Assembly: GCA_903933385.1 (NCBI GenBank)
Contig: CAIZJW010000287.1
Location: 1 to 49,825, forward strand
DNA length: 49,825 nt
Direction: 5' to 3'
From: an uncultured Silvanigrella sp.
Lineage (GTDB): Bacteria > Bdellovibrionota_B > Oligoflexia > Silvanigrellales > Silvanigrellaceae
The position numbers were made by a program, and so were the translations under genes. Positions 24,446 to 35,425 of the stretch are shown in pieces. The notes under the pieces are model-generated. The model worked only from the letters and a program-made list of their open reading frames with translations, was not told where the DNA came from and made no database searches. Numbering within the stretch: the stretch's first letter is position 1; each line of letters starts with the position of its first letter.

Positions 24446-25393
24446 ATGCTTGATGGAATGCGCACCGCAGCAAAGTCTGCGAGACTGTGCCACATCATCA
24501 TGAATGCGTCTGCAGGACGGGCGCATCGCGACCGCTTGGCACTCGCTTTACGTGCTGGCTTACCGCAATGGCCTGTCACACTTCATACACCGAATTCGCA
24601 AATCGAGATGTTGTCTCTGATTCGCTCCATTCCATTGGGCGACGATCTTGTGATTGCGGGAGGTGATGGAACTCTGCAATGCGCCCTGCCAGCTTTAATG
24701 GATACACGCCGTCCTGTGGTCGTTCTCCCGTTAGGCACGGCCAACGATTTTGCATCTCACTGGGGATATTCCGCTGACGTGCTTTCGTTGCAAAGCGCGC
24801 TGACAAAGCGCGTGCTTCGTGAAGTAGATGTTGTTCAATGCAATGATATTTATTTTCTCACAGTGGGTGGGATAGGTGTGGGTGCTTTTTTAACGAGAGA
24901 TTTTAATAGAATACGCAGATTCTCTCCCATAATAAACAAATTATCAGAAACCATGGGCAGCAATATTTATACAATTTTAGCAGCCACAACAATTCTTGGT
25001 CGCAAATCATATTTACGACGGTTGAAAATTGAAACCTCAAAAGGCGTACGCGAGGGTTTGTTTAGTAACATATTTATGTGCAATCAGTCGCGCCTTGGCG
25101 GTGATTTGCTCGTGGCGCCGGAGGCAAGCACCTCCGATGGCTGTGTCGATGTCCTTTTTTTGCGCGGTCAAACCCCAACTGAGCTGCTTTATTCGCTTGC
25201 GTGTTTGAGGATGAACAAAGAGCCCGTGCTCTCAGAGCGTGTGACCACTGAGGAAATGATAGTGCGCTCATCCGACGGCCATGGGCAGCTTATGTTTGCT
25301 GATGGCGAGGCGTTTGAGATGCCCTCGGAACTGCGTATCAAAGTCCACAGGGGTGGAATGTCCATTCTCACGGCAGGGGGACCTGCAGCATGA
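24446..25393 (+). CDS. Diacylglycerol-kinase-family lipid kinase
   Basis: A 315-residue ATP-dependent lipid kinase of the DAGK_cat type (DgkB/YegS-like), phosphorylating diacylglycerol or a related long-chain hydroxyl lipid. The nucleotide-binding motif GGDGT is at residues 72-76, then LPLGTANDFA, the usual second core signature, and near the C-terminus DGCVDVLFL and FADGEAFEM, which fit the family's beta-sandwich domain. ATG 24446 follows GGGAG; an upstream in-frame TTG at 24371 would run through a hairpin and is less likely. First gene of a tightly coupled lipid cluster; its stop overlaps the next ATG (ATGA). Confidence 0.88.
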   Translation: MLDGMRTAAKSARLCHIIMNASAGRAHRDRLALALRAGLPQWPVTLHTPNSQIEMLSLIRSIPLGDDLVIAGGDGTLQCALPALMDTRRPVVVLPLGTANDFASHWGYSADVLSLQSALTKRVLREVDVVQCNDIYFLTVGGIGVGAFLTRDFNRIRRFSPIINKLSETMGSNIYTILAATTILGRKSYLRRLKIETSKGVREGLFSNIFMCNQSRLGGDLLVAPEASTSDGCVDVLFLRGQTPTELLYSLACLRMNKEPVLSERVTTEEMIVRSSDGHGQLMFADGEAFEMPSELRIKVHRGGMSILTAGGPAA

Positions 25394-27504
25394 ATATTCC
25401 CAAGACTAGAAAAGTTGTTGTTTTGAATTTCCTTGAGCAGGGGAGCGATCTTCTCGGGACAATTAAACTCGATGGTATTGAGTTTGAAGTCATCGAGAAA
25501 AGGATTGGCTGGGACTTCTCAATGGCGCATTATATCGTTCACGAAATGGACGGCGATGTCGACGCCTTTGTGCTCAGTGGAGTGAGAGATAAGGCAGTTT
25601 TTGGCAATAGAGAGGTATTGCATCATCCCACCCGCGACCTCATTCGATTTGCCGACAGGACTCCAGTTTATACAGGGGTCGACCTGGTCACTCTTTTTGG
25701 CAACTGGACGTTGCGCAAATTTCTGCGCGAAGAACCTCATTTCTTTAAAAGAAAGAAGGTTCTTTTCCACACTGCTCTGTACACACCATTTGCAGAGTCT
25801 TTTATAGAAAGTGGAGCAATACTGCAGTCAGCTGATCCGCTTTTTTTGTTTGGTATGCCAACCCTTCTTCAGAATCAGAAACAAATTGGCCGATTCTTAA
25901 CTTTGATTACGCCATTGCTGTCTTCGAAATTGGTTGCTGGTCGGCATGTTTTTTCGCAATGGATGAGGGAACATTCCTCCAAGTCGCTGTCAAAATGGAT
26001 CTCTGGTTGCGATGTGTTTGTCACCTATTCGGCGTTGCTAGGTGAGATCGAAAAGCCAGAGGTGTTTGAGGGAAAGGTGGTATTTACTGACTTCCTCACC
26101 TCCGCACAACGCGAGAAACTCGAACGTTTCAAGGTGGCGCAGATTGTGGAGTTTGCTCCCGATGTGTCTGCATTGAAAATTCCGGAAGAATTATGGTCAT
26201 TCGGTCTGACAACTGCGCTTATGGATCAGTTGCGAATCAGTCGACAGAGCAATCTTGAATTGAGTGAATTTGCACTCGAAATGATTGAAGGTTTGCGAAT
26301 CGAGCCCCGTCGTCTTCAATCGGCATCCAAAGTCCCAAGGCGTTGTGCATTCATTATTCATCCCCTCAGCGTGAAACATTTAGCCCTCACGCCAGGCTTT
26401 TCTTGGCTTCGCAGTGCGCCAAAGAAGGTTGTTTCGGTCGCGGAAGGAGCTATGGCTCGCGTTCCGGTGTTTCGCTATGGAGAGCTCACGCGTGTTCGCA
26501 GTGAATTGACTGGACAGGAAGTGATCTGTGACATCTATGCATTGTGCGCAACCCCGCGCGCCATGCTCCGCATGGATGAAAATTTTATCTACGACCAACT
26601 TGTTGCTGCGGCAGAGCACGCTCACAAACGTGGCGCGCTGATGATCGGTCTGGGAGCGTATACAAAAGTAATTGGTGATTCAGGCGTGACCGTCGCACGT
26701 CGTTCACCTATCCCAGTGACAACTGGTAATTCATACTCTGCCGCCGCAACTTTGTGGGCTGCACGTATGATGGTTGAGCGCATGGGTTTTGTCACACGCG
26801 AGCCAAAAAATGGGCTCCTAAAGATGAAGGTCATGGTCGTTGGTGCGACTGGGAGTATAGGCCGCGTGTCAGCGCAGCTCCTTGCGCTTGTCGCTGATGA
26901 AATTGTGATTGTGGCACCCCGGGCTGACAAACTTCTCGAGTTGCGTGATGAGCTCAAAGAGTTGGCGCCAAATACAGAGGTTTTGGTACGAACTGATCCG
27001 AACGAAGAATTGTTGGACACCGATTTGGTAGTGACTGCGACTTCCAATCAACGAGGACAGATTTTAGACATCATGCGCGTGAAGCCTGGCGCCGTGATCT
27101 GTGATTGCTCACGTCCACTGGATATTCGTCCTGAGGAGGCAAAACGTCGGCCAGATGTTCTGGTGATAGAAAGCGGCGAAATTGATTTGCCTGGTCCGGT
27201 GCGGATGACAGTGGATATTGGCCTGCCAAAACCAAGTGTTTACGCTTGTTTGGCTGAAACAGTTCTTCTCACAATGGAAGGCCGCTATGAATGTTTTTCA
27301 CTGTCTCGTCAATTGCAGTTGGAGCGTGTGAAAGAGATTTATCAATTGGGACTGAAGCACGGAGCGAAATTGGCGACTATTCGCACTCACGAGGGAGTTC
27401 TGACCGAGGAACAAATTGAACGCTGTCGTGAACTGGCTCTGCAGATGCGCCGCGATTGGCAAAAGCCAGTTGCATCGACAAAAAGAAAGTTGAGGCTCGT
27501 ATGA
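25390..27504 (+). CDS. Acyl-ACP-reductase-like dehydrogenase with unknown N-terminal domain
   Basis: A 704-residue two-part protein. From about residue 370 on it resembles cyanobacterial long-chain acyl-ACP reductase (AAR), which makes fatty aldehydes: HAHKRGALMIGLGAYTKVI, TTGNSYSAAATLW, the Rossmann motif VVGATGSIG (glycines 485-491) and YACLAETVLLTMEGRYE. The Cys in that last block (residue 620) matches the acyl-thioester Cys294 of Synechococcus AAR. Residues 1-330 belong to no family I recognise. They lack a signal peptide or clear membrane segment, and include a hydrophobic ADPLFLFGMPTLL stretch. No aldehyde-deformylating oxygenase is in the window, so alkane synthesis is not implied. Start and stop overlap both neighbours by 4 bases. 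Function: probably reduction of an acyl thioester, by inference. Confidence 0.75.
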   Translation: MNIPKTRKVVVLNFLEQGSDLLGTIKLDGIEFEVIEKRIGWDFSMAHYIVHEMDGDVDAFVLSGVRDKAVFGNREVLHHPTRDLIRFADRTPVYTGVDLVTLFGNWTLRKFLREEPHFFKRKKVLFHTALYTPFAESFIESGAILQSADPLFLFGMPTLLQNQKQIGRFLTLITPLLSSKLVAGRHVFSQWMREHSSKSLSKWISGCDVFVTYSALLGEIEKPEVFEGKVVFTDFLTSAQREKLERFKVAQIVEFAPDVSALKIPEELWSFGLTTALMDQLRISRQSNLELSEFALEMIEGLRIEPRRLQSASKVPRRCAFIIHPLSVKHLALTPGFSWLRSAPKKVVSVAEGAMARVPVFRYGELTRVRSELTGQEVICDIYALCATPRAMLRMDENFIYDQLVAAAEHAHKRGALMIGLGAYTKVIGDSGVTVARRSPIPVTTGNSYSAAATLWAARMMVERMGFVTREPKNGLLKMKVMVVGATGSIGRVSAQLLALVADEIVIVAPRADKLLELRDELKELAPNTEVLVRTDPNEELLDTDLVVTATSNQRGQILDIMRVKPGAVICDCSRPLDIRPEEAKRRPDVLVIESGEIDLPGPVRMTVDIGLPKPSVYACLAETVLLTMEGRYECFSLSRQLQLERVKEIYQLGLKHGAKLATIRTHEGVLTEEQIERCRELALQMRRDWQKPVASTKRKLRLV

Positions 27505-28595
27505 GCTCCGGTTACTTCAACACCCTCAATTACACCCTCGCCAATGAAGACACCGCATTGGAAATGAATGTTCTCCCTGAAAATGTTGCGCATGCACTCG
27601 CCGTGGCGGGAAGTGGTGCACGCGTTCTTCCACTCTTTGCAAAAAATCCTGCACATCTGACCTGCGTTGATCTTTCTCGGGAGCAGCTCCTTTTAACTGA
27701 ACTTCGTATTGAGTCGGCGCGCGTGTTGAGTCGCGAAGATTTTCTTTGTTTTTGGGGTTATCCACCGCGTTTAGTCAATCCCGAATTTCGTTTAAAGGTT
27801 CTGACTGAACTGCAGATTTCCCAGGAATGCCGAAGCCTGTTTGAAGGTATTTTCAAGCAGCTTGGTTGGACGTCATTGTTGTATGTTGGTCGGTGGGAAC
27901 GAACATTTTTGAAGATTTCTAAGCTGTGTCGTGTTTTGCTAGGTGAAGATTCAAGGAATATTTTCGCGGCAAAAAATTTCTCCGAGCACTTGCTCTATGT
28001 GACCCGAGATTTCTCAAATTTTAGATGGAATGCTCTTGTTTTTTTAATTGGAAACTCAAAATTTTTTAATGCCCTTTTATACAAGGGCCATTTCCCACAA
28101 AAGAATGTTCCTGGGAGTCATCGAAGATATTATAAGGATGCATTTAATAGAATCTTCGCAAACGGAGTGCCTAGGCAAAACTTCTTCTTGCAGCTTACTT
28201 TCCTTGGAGAGTTGATATTTGAAGAGGGTAATCCTGTTGAATGTCATGCAGGCGTTTATGAGAAAATTCAGGCAGGTATTAGGTTAGCAAAAATTGAGTA
28301 TAAGCTTGGCAATGTCATTGATGTTGTGAGTCAAAGCTCTGAGAATCCGATTGATTTCGTTTCGCTCTCTGATGTTCCTTCCTACTTTGATGAAGCCACT
28401 GCTCGAGATTTTCTGACGCGAATGACTGTCGGTCTATCAAGTGATGCAATTGTTGTCGCCCGTTATTATTTGCGGGTTATTAACTGGATGAATCAAGGTG
28501 GATTCAAAAAGGTCAATGCTGACTTTGAAAGATGGATCGAGGAAGAAAAGACACAGATGTATCATATCGATATTTTCAGGAAGATAAGTGCGTGA
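27501..28595 (+). CDS. BtaA/DUF3419-like aminocarboxypropyl transferase
   Basis: A 364-residue protein resembling BtaA, which transfers the 3-amino-3-carboxypropyl group of SAM to diacylglycerol in betaine-lipid synthesis. Residues 1-70 show the expected start: an N-terminal NTLNYTLANEDTALE segment, the SAM loop VAGSGARVL (37-39 GSG) and VDLSREQLLLTELRI. A later FVSLSDVPSYFDEATARDFL block is also family-like. No BtaB methyltransferase is adjacent, so the product need not be a betaine lipid. The base composition of 27.9-28.5 kb looks somewhat more AT-rich than its neighbours. ATG 27501 overlaps the reductase stop (ATGA). Confidence 0.75.
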   Translation: MSSGYFNTLNYTLANEDTALEMNVLPENVAHALAVAGSGARVLPLFAKNPAHLTCVDLSREQLLLTELRIESARVLSREDFLCFWGYPPRLVNPEFRLKVLTELQISQECRSLFEGIFKQLGWTSLLYVGRWERTFLKISKLCRVLLGEDSRNIFAAKNFSEHLLYVTRDFSNFRWNALVFLIGNSKFFNALLYKGHFPQKNVPGSHRRYYKDAFNRIFANGVPRQNFFLQLTFLGELIFEEGNPVECHAGVYEKIQAGIRLAKIEYKLGNVIDVVSQSSENPIDFVSLSDVPSYFDEATARDFLTRMTVGLSSDAIVVARYYLRVINWMNQGGFKKVNADFERWIEEEKTQMYHIDIFRKISA

Positions 28596-29362
28596 GGTGG
28601 CAAGTGGTTAGGTTGCAGCTTTTCTTGGGAGCAGCGATTTTTTGCGTTTGGTCTGCTGCAAGTTTGCGGGTTGAAGCTGCCTCTCCCGAAAAATCAAAGC
28701 TCGGCCGACAGAGCAGTCAGCCGAGCCCTGACGAGATTCTTCGGAGAACTGATGAAGTCCGTTGTCCTTCAGAATCTTATTTTATGGAAGTTGAGGTGAA
28801 CAGCAAGAGTGACGATAACGTCGTGAAGCTTGAAGTATTCACAAAAGGGCGCGACAAAACTCGTGTGAATACCATTCTTCCCACACGCGATCGTGGACGC
28901 AATATGGTCATGATTGGCGAGGAGATGTGGGCCTATGTGCCAAATTTGAAACGGGCAGTTCGAGTTGCCCTGAATCAGAAGCTCACGGGGCAAGCAGCAA
29001 ATGGCGATGTGAGTCGCATGCGCTGGTGGGGCGATTATTCCGCGGTCAAGGAATCGGACGATGAGAAATTTTGGGTTCTGATGCTCACAGCTCGAAAGAA
29101 GGGGCTGACTTACGAGAAGATCCGTGCGTGGGTTGAAAAGGGTAGCTTCCGGCCTGTTAAGGCAGAGTATTTGAGTTTGTCTGGAATGATTCTAAAGAAA
29201 ACGAGTTTTGGCGATTTTAGATCAATTGCAGGCGCAGTGCGCCCTACTGAAATAAGTATTCAAGACGCAAAAAATTCAAATGATTCTTCAGTGATTCGAA
29301 TTTTGAAACTTGAAGCCCGCGAATCTTCAGATACCATCTTCAATCAGAACGCATTGCGCTGA
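28592..29362 (+). CDS. Outer-membrane lipoprotein-sorting-like protein (LolA-fold, COG2834-type)
   Basis: A 256-residue exported protein with an N-terminal hydrophobic segment (LQLFLGAAIFCVWSAASL) and a LolA/LolB-like body: a KLEVFTKGRDKTRVNTILP strand pair, then NMVMIGEEMWAYVPNLKRAVRV, RMRWWGDYS, and GSFRPVKAEYLSLSG. This is the pattern of outer-membrane lipoprotein-sorting proteins that often sit beside lipid exporters. The start is GTG 28592, overlapping the previous stop as GTGA; GTG 28604 is an alternative. It may carry the lipid made by the upstream genes across the periplasm (inference). It is distinct from the lolA at 10.2-10.9 kb. Confidence 0.78.
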   Translation: MRWQVVRLQLFLGAAIFCVWSAASLRVEAASPEKSKLGRQSSQPSPDEILRRTDEVRCPSESYFMEVEVNSKSDDNVVKLEVFTKGRDKTRVNTILPTRDRGRNMVMIGEEMWAYVPNLKRAVRVALNQKLTGQAANGDVSRMRWWGDYSAVKESDDEKFWVLMLTARKKGLTYEKIRAWVEKGSFRPVKAEYLSLSGMILKKTSFGDFRSIAGAVRPTEISIQDAKNSNDSSVIRILKLEARESSDTIFNQNALR

Positions 29363-29382
29363 GGCTGTCTGGATAGCTGACG

Positions 29383-30618
29383 ATGAAATCAACCGATCAC
29401 TTTAAATCTGTTTGTTGGAAGCGACTGATTTTTCTGTCAGCTTGCTCTTGGTTTGGTTTTTGTTCCGATGCCCGTGCAGAGCTTCGTGCATGGTCGGGAA
29501 GCGCGGAGCTTTCTACTGTCGGCTCGCCAGAGAATAATGTCCTTTGGAATTTTCGCCCTGGATTGGGCCTAAAATGGGAGCCCTCGTTTTCACTCTTTCC
29601 TCATTGGAGTCTCGGATTAGAAGGGCGAATTCGTGCCGATTCTCAATCTGAATTTTCATTATCAGGGCGGCAATTCGATGCGCGAGTCGACAGAGCTGTT
29701 CTTCAATGGATTGGATCAGAAGCGAGTCTTTCAGCCGGGTGGCAGAAGTTTACTTGGGGTGACTCAGCTTTTTTAGATGGTGTTGATGTTCTCAACGCCC
29801 GCGACCTCACTGAGCCTGTTTACTCCGACGATGAACTGCTCAAAATCGCTGTCCCTTCTGTGTCTCTCCAATATCTTGCAGGCAATACCGTTTTTCAGGC
29901 TGTTATAGTTGTCCAACCTGGTCGCTCACCTGTGCCCACTGAAGCTGCTGGAGTCAATGTGAACGCTCCTGAACCCCTGCGGCCCGGAGATGTTTACGAG
30001 TTCGGATTGAAGGCGGGTGGCTTGCTTAAAAACGGTTGGGACATCAACGGATATCTCGCGTCACATCAGGAGCGAATTCCGCAGGCAGTGCTCGTGCCCA
30101 ATCCTCTCGGGCTCTCTGTGCGTCTTTATGAACCACGCGTATTCACGCTTGGAATAACTGCAACGCAGTCTGCAGGTGATGTTGTGGTCCGATCTGAGAT
30201 GGCGTTTCACTTCAATCGCGCACTTCCCGAGTTCGGGCTTGCTCAAGAGGCAACGGCAAATCAGATGGTTGGGCACGTCACTGCGGATTTCACCCTGTTT
30301 TCTGATCTCATTCTCACGGGCGAGATCTGGGCTGAAAAATGGTCAGAGGCCTCGAGCGATTCTTTCAAAAATACAAGCAGCCTTTTAGGTGCGCGTTTGC
30401 AGAAGCCACTCTGGTCGCAGCGAGTTGATACTTCGTTGGGTTTTCTGACGTCGGCCGCTGTCAATGAGAGTCTTTTGACTGCCGGATTTACCTGGAAGTT
30501 TCTTGATGCTTGGCAGTGGAATCTAGATGCCTATCGCGTGCAAACGTCAAAGGGTCATTCTTTGGCGCGCCGACAGCTCAAAAATCTGATAAACTCGACT
30601 CTGAAATTTCAGTTCTGA
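29383..30618 (+). CDS. DUF1302-like outer-membrane beta-barrel protein
   Basis: A 411-residue exported protein with a signal peptide cleaved near SDARA. The mature sequence is rich in alternating aromatic/polar strands and ends in LKFQF, with terminal Phe. The internal block GWQKFTWGDSAFLDGVDVLN followed by ARDLTEP resembles the DUF1302 family, in which a long barrel is often encoded beside a lipoprotein-sorting protein. It starts 20 bases after that gene here, matching the same pairing. Transport cargo unknown. No RND/MMPL permease is encoded in the window, unlike many DUF1302 loci. Confidence 0.7.
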   Translation: MKSTDHFKSVCWKRLIFLSACSWFGFCSDARAELRAWSGSAELSTVGSPENNVLWNFRPGLGLKWEPSFSLFPHWSLGLEGRIRADSQSEFSLSGRQFDARVDRAVLQWIGSEASLSAGWQKFTWGDSAFLDGVDVLNARDLTEPVYSDDELLKIAVPSVSLQYLAGNTVFQAVIVVQPGRSPVPTEAAGVNVNAPEPLRPGDVYEFGLKAGGLLKNGWDINGYLASHQERIPQAVLVPNPLGLSVRLYEPRVFTLGITATQSAGDVVVRSEMAFHFNRALPEFGLAQEATANQMVGHVTADFTLFSDLILTGEIWAEKWSEASSDSFKNTSSLLGARLQKPLWSQRVDTSLGFLTSAAVNESLLTAGFTWKFLDAWQWNLDAYRVQTSKGHSLARRQLKNLINSTLKFQF

Positions 30619-30647
30619 GGCGATAGATTTTTTTCGGAGTAGAAGCA

Positions 30648-31490
30648 TTGTTGCTTTTGCGTGTCAGTCTTGTGGGGCTCATTTTTTTGCTGCTGGGTTT
30701 TCAGCAGGCGGATGCTTTTGTTTTTCTCGGCCCTGCGAAACCAAGATTGAAGCCTGCTGGTGGGCAAACTCAGGTGTTTCATTTGACCCCAGTAGCTCCT
30801 AGTTTCATAGATAAAGAAACTTTTGAAGATGGTTTTTATTCCGAGCGAAGCGACTCAGAGATTTTCGCTTTGTTGGTAGAGCGCTCGATGCTGGCATGGA
30901 ATGAGATACCAGAATTTGGGATTCAACTTGGAATCGCTGAAGGGACTGAAGGTAAAATAGATCCCGAAGATAATTTATTTTCGATTGGTGTTGGAAAGAT
31001 CTCTACAGTTGCGAGCGGTTTGGCCTTTCCTGTGACCGATGAAAAGGATCCTTCGACTCTCCGAGATTGTGACATTCAGGTTGGCACTGATATCGACTCT
31101 ATTCCATCTTTCATTTTCGTAATGATCCACGAGCTTGGTCATTGTCTTGGGCTTGGCCACAATCATTCCGATCCGTCGGCAATCATGGGCTATTGGCAGC
31201 CACGCAAAGAGGTTGCTCTTGGGTTCGATGACATTGCAGGTGCTTTGAGTTTGTACCCTCCGAAAGTTGGTGAGCAGACGAACAGCTTTGCACCCTGCGG
31301 AAGTCTTGTTCACATTCGATTCAGGCAGAAATATGATCGGCCAAACAAAAACCACCCTCAGTACTTTCGAAAAGAAGAAATGAACTGGGGTGGCTTATTA
31401 GTGTTATTTGCTGGACCAGCCCTTCTTTGGCTAGCGAACCTGCTTAGACCATTGTCATCCCGCCATCTACGGCCAAAGTCTGGCCAGTGA
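30648..31490 (+). CDS. Matrixin-like exported zinc metalloprotease with C-terminal membrane anchor
   Basis: A 280-residue metzincin. An N-terminal signal segment (LVGLIFLLLGF) is followed by a catalytic domain with the zinc site HELGHCLGLGH (HExxHxxGxxH) and a Met-turn in AIMGYW shortly after. A C-terminal hydrophobic helix ([19 protein letters not shown]) and basic tail suggest membrane anchoring. The start is TTG 30648 after GGAG; TTG 30651 is also possible. It follows the barrel gene by 29 bases and its last 47 bases overlap the convergent fabG gene. Substrate unknown; association with the lipid cluster may be positional only. Confidence 0.8.
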   Translation: MLLLRVSLVGLIFLLLGFQQADAFVFLGPAKPRLKPAGGQTQVFHLTPVAPSFIDKETFEDGFYSERSDSEIFALLVERSMLAWNEIPEFGIQLGIAEGTEGKIDPEDNLFSIGVGKISTVASGLAFPVTDEKDPSTLRDCDIQVGTDIDSIPSFIFVMIHELGHCLGLGHNHSDPSAIMGYWQPRKEVALGFDDIAGALSLYPPKVGEQTNSFAPCGSLVHIRFRQKYDRPNKNHPQYFRKEEMNWGGLLVLFAGPALLWLANLLRPLSSRHLRPKSGQ

Positions 31491-33796: not shown

Positions 33797-33873
33797 AACA
33801 GAGCCATTCGTTCGCAGACTCCGAATCGGTTTCTTAGAACCACACATCTTGAGCTCTCCAGGGAGGGGTGCAC

Positions 33874-34764
33874 ATGAGTGATTTTGGTGCTGCCCCGCGC
33901 ATGGACTGGACACTGCAGGGAAAGCCATTTGAATCGGCCTCGTTCAAGTGGGGGCTGCCTTTGCTTCCCCATCTTCACGAGACTTTTTCACGGACCCAGG
34001 CCTTACCTGCCTTCGAGGTTTCTCTCGACAGGCTCTTGCTGCAGGAAAAAAGTTCAATTGATCGCAGCTGGGCGCGCGCCATGGCGCAAAAAACGGATGT
34101 CTGTTTACTTTCGCGATTGCTGAATTTGGGTGGCGAGCGTGAAATCACTGATGCAGAACTTAAAAACATTGCTCAGTGTGTTGAAGAGATTTCTCCTCGC
34201 TGGTTTGCGATTTCGGTGGGCTTCAATGCTCAGCGTGGCCATGTTCTGCAGAATCCCTTGCCCCTCCCAAAAACGCAAGAAATGTTAGAACATCTCGTCG
34301 AGAGGATTCGTCGACTCAAATTTTTTTGTAATCGCGAAATAGCTCTCGTGAATGTGGCATCGATGTTTCGCTATTCGTTTGAGAGTTTTTCTGAAACCGA
34401 GTTTTTAAGCAAACTTGTAGATGCAACTGGATGCAAATTAATTCTGGATATTCCGGCATTCTATGTAAGTCTCTATCACAGAGAACAAGACTTTGAGAGC
34501 GAGCTTGCAAAACTGCCACTCGATGCGGTGGCAAGCGTTCGCATTGGTGCACTCGCGCTTTCCACACATGGAATTGTCGATGCTGAATGTGGGCGTCTTT
34601 CAATCACGCACTGGGGCCTTTTGGAGGATGTTCTTCACGCACTTCCTGCCAATCAGCACCGTGCTATTTTTTTGAAATGGTTCGAGCCTTTGGTTTCGGG
34701 CAATGATCTGGTTGCCGAGATTGTCAGTGGTCAGAGTGCGCTCAAACGGCTTGGGGAGGTGTGA
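33874..34764 (+). CDS. Divergent DUF692-family protein, probable metal-site loss
   Basis: A 296-residue TIM-barrel-type protein matching the DUF692 (MbnB/BufB) pattern: NPLPLPKTQEMLEHLVERI, then ALVNVASMF, SETEFLSKLVDATGCKLILDI, YVSLYHRE and LPLDAVASVRIGAL. Active DUF692 enzymes are multi-iron oxygenases that modify Cys in peptide precursors. Several expected ligand positions differ: LEN is LVN (residues 158-160), LDVNN is LDIPA (191-195), and the IHLAG His is Arg (VRIGA, 222-226). Only the Asp at 192 is clearly kept. Catalysis is doubtful. ATG 33874 has GGGAGG seven bases upstream. It is followed at once by a DUF2063-like gene, the usual partner. Confidence 0.65.
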   Translation: MSDFGAAPRMDWTLQGKPFESASFKWGLPLLPHLHETFSRTQALPAFEVSLDRLLLQEKSSIDRSWARAMAQKTDVCLLSRLLNLGGEREITDAELKNIAQCVEEISPRWFAISVGFNAQRGHVLQNPLPLPKTQEMLEHLVERIRRLKFFCNREIALVNVASMFRYSFESFSETEFLSKLVDATGCKLILDIPAFYVSLYHREQDFESELAKLPLDAVASVRIGALALSTHGIVDAECGRLSITHWGLLEDVLHALPANQHRAIFLKWFEPLVSGNDLVAEIVSGQSALKRLGEV

Positions 34765-34765
34765 T

Positions 34766-35425
34766 GTGAATCACGGCCAACAGGGTCACTTCGCCTTTGA
34801 ATACCTTCTCTTTGAATCTTTTCGGGCACGTGACGCAAAGAATTCTCACTGGGCCGATGGTTTGTTACATGTTGTGCCTCATGAGCAGCTGCCGCAAGTT
34901 GCACTTCATCATCAACATGCTCAGTACCACCAAGTTTTGTTTTGGCTGGAAAATCTTTTTCCACAGGCTGCTCAGTGGTTAGGGGTACGAGAATTGGCAC
35001 GTCTCGCGCTCGATTTCTTGGAAAATAGTCCAATCCATTCGGAAGATCCGATACTTCATGCACAGAAATTGATTGAAATTCTGAGCACAAAACGTTCTCA
35101 TCTGCATGTTGCTCAGCTTGAGGTGCTTATGCGCTGTGGAATTGCAGCGTGGAAGGTGCGCTCGGCAAAGTGGCGCCCAGACATTGCCACGATCCCTCGC
35201 GAAAGGCCGTTTTCTTTCATGACGCTCGTTGAACACAACCTGGCGGCATGCGTTGAATCAAGTGGTGATTGGTCTATTTTCAATTTGTGGCAGAGTGCTC
35301 AAACTGGCAAAGCTGTCGATGTTTTGGGTGACGCCGATGTTCTCGCAATTTTTCGCAAAGATGAATTCACTCTTGAGTTTGAATGTTGGACTACAGAGCA
35401 ACTGAAGGAACGCATTCAAAGTTAG
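34766..35425 (+). CDS. DUF2063-like (MbnC/BufC/HvfC-type) partner protein
   Basis: A 219-residue helical protein. Its core, with WLENLFPQAAQWLG, RELARLALDFLENSP and AQLEVLMRCGIAAW, follows the DUF2063 consensus of FP, LAxxFL, and LxxLEWA blocks. In methanobactin and bufferin systems such proteins form a heterodimer with the DUF692 enzyme and recognise the precursor leader. Start: GTG 34766, six bases after GGGGAGG and one base after the DUF692 stop. No DUF2282-type precursor is adjacent: only 77 bases separate tyrS from the pair, and the next gene is convergent. Its stop overlaps that gene's stop by 4 bases. Confidence 0.6.
   Translation: MNHGQQGHFAFEYLLFESFRARDAKNSHWADGLLHVVPHEQLPQVALHHQHAQYHQVLFWLENLFPQAAQWLGVRELARLALDFLENSPIHSEDPILHAQKLIEILSTKRSHLHVAQLEVLMRCGIAAWKVRSAKWRPDIATIPRERPFSFMTLVEHNLAACVESSGDWSIFNLWQSAQTGKAVDVLGDADVLAIFRKDEFTLEFECWTTEQLKERIQS

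Follow-up and report, generated by a model that had tools for sequence, protein, structure and literature searches.

The stretch of DNA analysed here (the window) comprises 49,825 nucleotides of contig CAIZJW010000287.1 from an uncultured Silvanigrella sp. (assembly GCA_903933385.1), and between its positions 24,446 and 31,490 lie six genes for a lipid kinase, a predicted acyl-thioester reductase, a DUF3419 protein, a LolA-like carrier, a DUF1302-like barrel and a matrixin, a combination of known protein families that is undescribed. An earlier note, made from the sequence alone, saw in them a pathway that makes an unusual polar lipid and moves it to the outer membrane, and knew of no described pathway with this combination; our literature search, too, found no description of it. 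The genes are as follows.

24446-25393, + strand: lipid kinase of the DAGK_cat/YegS_C type, 315 amino acids (Pfam; GGDGT and PxGTAND motifs; synteny).
25390-27504, + strand: predicted acyl-thioester reductase, 704 amino acids, with an N-terminal domain of ~310 residues followed by a part of the PigE/TamH/AAR type (AAR, acyl-acyl carrier protein (ACP) reductase; NCBIfam, PDB profiles, Foldseek).
27501-28595, + strand: protein of the DUF3419 family (BtaA-type 3-amino-3-carboxypropyl transferases dependent on S-adenosylmethionine, SAM), 364 amino acids (Pfam).
28592-29362, + strand, GTG start: predicted periplasmic carrier of the LolA_like family (PF17131) with a signal-like N-terminal segment (Pfam).
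29383-30618, + strand: DUF1302-like predicted outer-membrane barrel with a signal-like N-terminus and the C-terminal residues ...LKFQF (Pfam).
30648-31490, + strand, TTG start: matrixin-like zinc metallopeptidase with a signal-like N-terminus (Pfam, zinc motif), an uncertain member of the system.

All six open reading frames (ORFs) were confirmed on the + strand together with the spacing reported earlier: genes one to four are joined by overlaps of exactly 4 bases (ATGA, ATGA, GTGA), and gaps of 20 and 29 bases precede the DUF1302-like and matrixin genes. Promoter and terminator scans gave signals at or below chance. The assignments made in the note for five of the proteins each stand above their Pfam cut-offs, namely the kinase (DAGK_cat, PF00781, 62.8 bits against 23.6; YegS_C, 33.3 bits, also above its cut-off), the DUF3419 protein (PF11899, 98.2 bits against a gathering threshold of 28.2, residues 5-336), the LolA_like carrier (120.1 bits against 30), the barrel (PF06980, 32.0 bits against 23.2, C-terminal half only) and the matrixin (Peptidase_M10, 34.0 bits against 24, with the zinc motif HExxHxxGxxH present as HELGHCLGLGH).

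That this grouping is not due to chance follows from a comparison of 58 genomes of the phylum, which include the window's own (G000) and two congeners (G004, G005). Full-length homologues of the 704-residue reductase occur in 12 of the 58 genomes, with a diacylglycerol kinase (DGK) gene upstream on the same strand in 11 of the 12 and DUF3419 directly downstream in ten (in G020 interrupted by a stop). In seven genomes (G036, G035, G032, G029, G043, G020, G042) an extended short-chain dehydrogenase/reductase (SDR), related to PRK07201 and OleD, is placed between kinase and reductase, so that one operon, DGK-(SDR)-reductase-DUF3419, recurs across the phylum, 4-base overlaps included. The six-gene order is retained in G005, while G004 has the same genes at two contig ends, and a scan of genome contigs returned a congener as the only match. 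Scattered homologues without co-occurrence, which the earlier note had named as the outcome that would count against it, were thus not what the 58 genomes revealed; the gene order is that of a conserved unit, in which fatty-acyl and SAM-dependent enzymes stand together with a kinase and with parts for envelope transport.

The unit is, however, not the whole of the pathway that the note took it for, as at least three further components, AMP-ligase-UbiA, a PEP-synthase/PigC-like protein and ABC-FtsX (PEP, phosphoenolpyruvate; ABC, ATP-binding cassette), are encoded at a second locus. In relatives the operon runs into or adjoins an AMP-ligase gene, either free-standing or as a fusion with an alpha/beta hydrolase or with UbiA; a UbiA-like protein and a PEP-synthase/PigC/RPH-like protein of ~900 residues are also encoded in or beside it. 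Genes for the PEP-synthase-like protein are found in 19 of 23 genomes with DUF3419 and in 1 of 35 without, and those for AMP-ligase/UbiA give an identical table (19/23 against 1/35; Fisher p = 1.7e-10 for each); counted by genus, p is 1e-5 and 9e-5, respectively, all in tests that ignore phylogeny. DUF3419 and these genes share an operon or lie side by side in G032, G029, G035, G036, G042, G043 and G001. In the window's genome they sit on a separate contig (C120) in the order AMP-ligase-UbiA, PEP-synthase-like protein, LolD-like ABC ATPase and MacB_PCD/FtsX permease; a gene for an AurF-like di-iron oxygenase is transcribed divergently from this row, and GNAT proteins are encoded beside it. Both congeners share the divergent layout, and since G005 has the two loci on separate contigs of 193 and 170 kb they are not neighbours there. 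A plasmid search with AMP-ligase-UbiA returned generic AMP ligases only.

Among the six proteins the 704-residue one reaches no Pfam cut-off. Its residues ~316-688 score 161.8 bits with PigE and 62.1 bits with acyl-ACP reductase (NCBIfam), which is below the curated cut-offs of both equivalogs (PigE, NF053554, 850 bits and a fused aminotransferase, here matched in the reductase part only; TIGR04058, 449.7 bits), and no aminotransferase domain appeared in Pfam or NCBIfam scans. PDB profiles match PigE (4ppm, E 5e-38) and AAR (6jzq, E 2e-17), and the AlphaFold model (predicted local distance difference test, pLDDT, 83) retrieves AAR and the carmabin TAD by Foldseek with E ~1e-18. Cys620 falls in the column of the catalytic Cys294 of AAR and is invariant in 12 of 12 homologues, which also hold the Rossmann nucleotide motif GATGSIG (GATGGIG in one of them). 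Hence the protein is predicted to have the PigE/TamH/AAR fold and to reduce acyl thioesters; the earlier label 'acyl-ACP-reductase-like' keeps the fold and the cysteine, with PigE and TamH nearer than cyanobacterial AAR. The first ~310 residues are well modelled, as an alpha/beta domain that no library or tool names and that found no match in a plasmid search; it may resemble proteins annotated as 'quinate 5-dehydrogenase'. Plasmid matches to the reductase were partial, chiefly to PigE/TamH-like fusions with an aminotransferase, and one such TamH-like fusion of a class III aminotransferase with a thioester reductase is encoded in G029 (L029 83-2785, on contig C199), which has the full cluster elsewhere. 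PigE and TamH convert acyl thioesters to aldehydes (PMC8341465, PMC9594044). The neighbouring kinases keep GGDGT and PxGTAND in 11 of 11 cluster members checked.

A swap of modules is seen in genomes that carry the system without the 704-residue reductase. Six of nine of these have a fusion of HMG-CoA (3-hydroxy-3-methylglutaryl-CoA) reductase with an EcKL/APH-type kinase near DUF3419 or AMP-ligase-UbiA (the kinase part being Pfam-confirmed in three of the six and assigned by frame length and by eye in the other three), against none of 11 system-bearing genomes with the reductase (p = 0.002). Because both mutually exclusive modules pair thioester reduction with phosphorylation, a shared 'reduce thioester, then phosphorylate' step can be read from them, and this suggests that they perform an equivalent step of the pathway, even if the fused HMG-CoA reductase may still make mevalonate. 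We considered a housekeeping role for the fusions, but with a plain HMG-CoA reductase in most genomes they look like a second, cluster-bound copy. HMG-CoA reductase matches are present in 57 of the 58 genomes, mostly as a plain frame of ~400-480 amino acids, a distribution that suggests mevalonate-route isoprenoid synthesis across the phylum.

The DUF3419 protein is modelled with confidence (pLDDT 90.5). No sequence relatives were found in the PDB, and its fold matches solved structures weakly (6ulo, TM 0.41-0.48). E16-D17, G39 and D57 are invariant across 19 DUF3419 sequences, more typical members included, to which (G040, G053, G044) the window protein is 15-21% identical. Going by family membership, it would most likely transfer 3-amino-3-carboxypropyl, the group that BtaA moves from SAM to diacylglycerol (PMC3972451). 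The acceptor is another matter. A relative with 37% identity, encoded on a Deefgea piscis plasmid (NZ_CP054144.1; L184 18586-21898), has next to it SpeD, a monooxygenase-like gene and a di-iron enzyme of the haem-oxygenase-like kind; none of the cluster partners is among its annotated neighbours, and so family membership does not reveal the acceptor. To our knowledge, DUF3419 has been characterised for betaine lipids only. In G051 (L067 6461-8188) DUF3419 is likewise paired with a haem-oxygenase-like enzyme, and on the Rhizobium plasmid pMK-2 (L185 1823-8161) it stands in a row with genes for ketoacyl-ACP synthase III, an oxidoreductase, an MBL-fold protein and CoF-synthetase.

As for export, the window carrier scores 17.2 bits against LolA itself (TIGR00547, cut-off 112 bits), and its orthologues of at least 190 bits occur in eight genomes, all eight of which have DUF3419 (p = 3e-4). 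A DUF1302-like gene adjoins the LolA gene in the congeners, G020, G035, G044, G001 and G046; G035 holds the genes as an ABC-FtsX-LolA-DUF1302 operon, of which G044 and G020 have close variants, G001 and G046 show LolA and DUF1302 as a pair, and G053 has the G035-like arrangement with a more distant LolA. The LolD-like ATPase and FtsX/MacB_PCD permease that adjoin LolA in G035, G044 and G053 are encoded at the second locus in the window's genome, where the C120 FtsX scores 432 bits against that of G035 and at most 93 against FtsX paralogues of its own genome. Because their homologues form a single operon in relatives, LolA-DUF1302 of the window and ABC-FtsX of C120 are most simply read as two halves of one exporter. 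ABC-FtsX genes of the same subfamily also adjoin DUF3419 (G042, G043) or the genes for AMP-ligase-UbiA and the PEP-synthase-like protein (G000, G004, G005, G001). Two further, sequence-distant ABC-FtsX-LolA_like sets exist in the window's genome (L182 on contig C295, L183 on C296).

Earlier studies link the transport of hydrophobic compounds to DUF1302 together with a LolA-superfamily protein (PMC6394551, PMC10866462); in E. coli, hydrophobic molecules are extracted by a type VII ABC transporter (PMC12646458). With LolCDE-LolA and other type VII ABC systems (YbbAP-TesA) the putative exporter shares a LolD-like ATPase, a LolC/E-like FtsX permease and a periplasmic protein of the LolA fold; unlike LolCDE-LolA, it has LolA_like (PF17131) in place of LolA, a DUF1302 barrel in place of LolB and linked biosynthetic enzymes. 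It resembles RND-DUF1329-DUF1302 transport (RND, resistance-nodulation-division; AmeABCD, PP_0765/PP_0766) in the DUF1302 outer-membrane protein and its LolA-superfamily periplasmic partner but is apparently energised by ABC-FtsX rather than an RND pump, and uses LolA_like rather than DUF1329. Whether the matrixin belongs here is uncertain. Its gene was met only in the window's genus (the zinc motif being kept in three of three congeners), and its C-terminus, similar in G004 and G005, has a hydrophobic segment and a basic tail as in proteins that are sorted or anchored C-terminally.

Taken together, we would put at about even the chance that one biosynthesis-and-export system is spread over two loci, of which the six genes form one, and that its hydrophobic product leaves via ABC-LolA-DUF1302. 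The genes present, their conserved operons and co-occurrence, the catalytic motifs and the split into two loci are observed; each reaction and its place in the sequence, the product and where it ends up are our inference. The AMP-forming ligase of the second locus would activate a fatty acid, and the 704-residue reductase would convert the acyl thioester to an aldehyde via Cys620 and NAD(P)H, which the SDR in most relatives, and another enzyme in the window's family, would reduce to the alcohol. The DAGK-type kinase would then phosphorylate a hydroxyl, building blocks might be joined or modified by the UbiA-type membrane transferase together with the ATP-dependent PEP-synthase/PigC/RPH-like enzyme, and the DUF3419 enzyme would add a SAM-derived group, most likely 3-amino-3-carboxypropyl. 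Finally, the second locus would supply the LolD/FtsX-type (type VII) ABC transporter that takes the amphiphilic product from the inner membrane, after which the LolA-like protein would carry it and hand it over to the DUF1302 barrel.

Several observations weigh against this single-system interpretation. Outside the window's genus, G020 alone has LolA-DUF1302 joined to the enzyme operon, and a search of the window's family, run without positive control, did not find the SDR that could complete the reduction. Moreover, G003 (83% complete) keeps DGK-reductase between RsmB and FabG with none of the DUF3419, PEP-synthase-like and AMP-ligase-UbiA genes at the thresholds used, which implies that kinase and reductase can persist alone. 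The comparison genomes, too, are mostly drafts, and those of the same genus are not independent.

Among the alternatives, it is possible, if unlikely, that the two loci make a secondary metabolite that diffuses away rather than a membrane lipid, following tambjamine/prodigiosin logic (TamA, TamH, TamQ/PigC) with DUF3419 giving an amino-acid part and ABC-LolA-DUF1302 secreting it. The likeness to these assembly lines (TamA-TamH-TamQ, PigE-PigC) comprises an AMP-forming ligase, an AAR-fold reductase with the same catalytic cysteine, in the window nearest to PigE, and a PigC-like ATP-grasp/PEP-utiliser (364 bits with RedH, 353 with PigC); the AurF-type oxygenase and GNAT proteins adjoining the second locus and the di-iron enzyme beside the Deefgea relative would fit in as well. 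On the other hand, the PEP-synthase-like protein scores far higher with its general family (NF004881, 1103 bits) than with PigC, the reductase has no fused aminotransferase, and neither pyrrole-forming nor aminotransferase genes were recognised in the operons, which hold or accompany an extra DAGK-type kinase, DUF3419, UbiA and the LolA-DUF1302 exporter. A membrane-bound intermediate would better accommodate both the DAGK-type kinase and a membrane protein of the UbiA type; we favour a membrane lipid over a tambjamine-like metabolite. To go further and propose a new class of outer-membrane lipid, in which a reduced, phosphorylated acyl chain (HMG-CoA-reductase-derived in sister lineages) bears a SAM-derived amino-acid group, with a dedicated ABC-LolA-DUF1302 exporter and interchangeable reduction-kinase modules for the chain precursor, would be bolder, and we hold it to be doubtful.

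The version along the lines of the earlier note, in which DUF3419 would work like BtaA and turn diacylglycerol, or an ether analogue of it, into a homoserine (betaine-type) glycerolipid, strikes us as improbable. BtaA family membership stands, as does the conserved unit of enzymes and transport parts, and a lipid-type kinase and an acyl reductase do adjoin DUF3419; the diacylglycerol headgroup, by contrast, is unproven given the other settings of the family, the low identity to its typical members and the different partners. BtaB, the N-methyltransferase, was recognised neither beside DUF3419 nor among those cluster genes that could be identified, many ORFs on the flanks having no assignment, and BtaA/BtaB chemistry has no place for the PEP-synthase-like and AMP-ligase-UbiA proteins. 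Similarly improbable is that one transcript joins two unrelated modules, DGK-reductase-DUF3419 and a LolA-DUF1302(-matrixin) set for lipoprotein or general envelope traffic, which would suit the separation of LolA-DUF1302 from the enzymes in most relatives and the additional ABC-LolA sets on C295 and C296 but not the presence of DUF3419 in all eight genomes with high-scoring LolA nor the position of same-subfamily ABC-FtsX genes next to DUF3419, AMP-ligase-UbiA and PEP-synthase-like genes.

Elsewhere in the window (33868-35425), a gene of the MbnB/TglH/ChrH family (PF05114) and an unnamed gene after it, both kept in the two congeners (L027, L179), are a possible pair for modification of ribosomally synthesised and post-translationally modified peptides.

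If the two loci do form one system, a LolA-DUF1302 route to the outer membrane, whose substrate is seldom known, would be tied to defined biosynthetic enzymes, and its substrate could be found by chemistry. DUF3419 would gain a second and larger genomic setting beyond betaine lipids, and the swap between reductase plus kinase and HMG-CoA reductase plus kinase would offer a testable case of a pathway in which an unrelated enzyme pair has taken the place of another.

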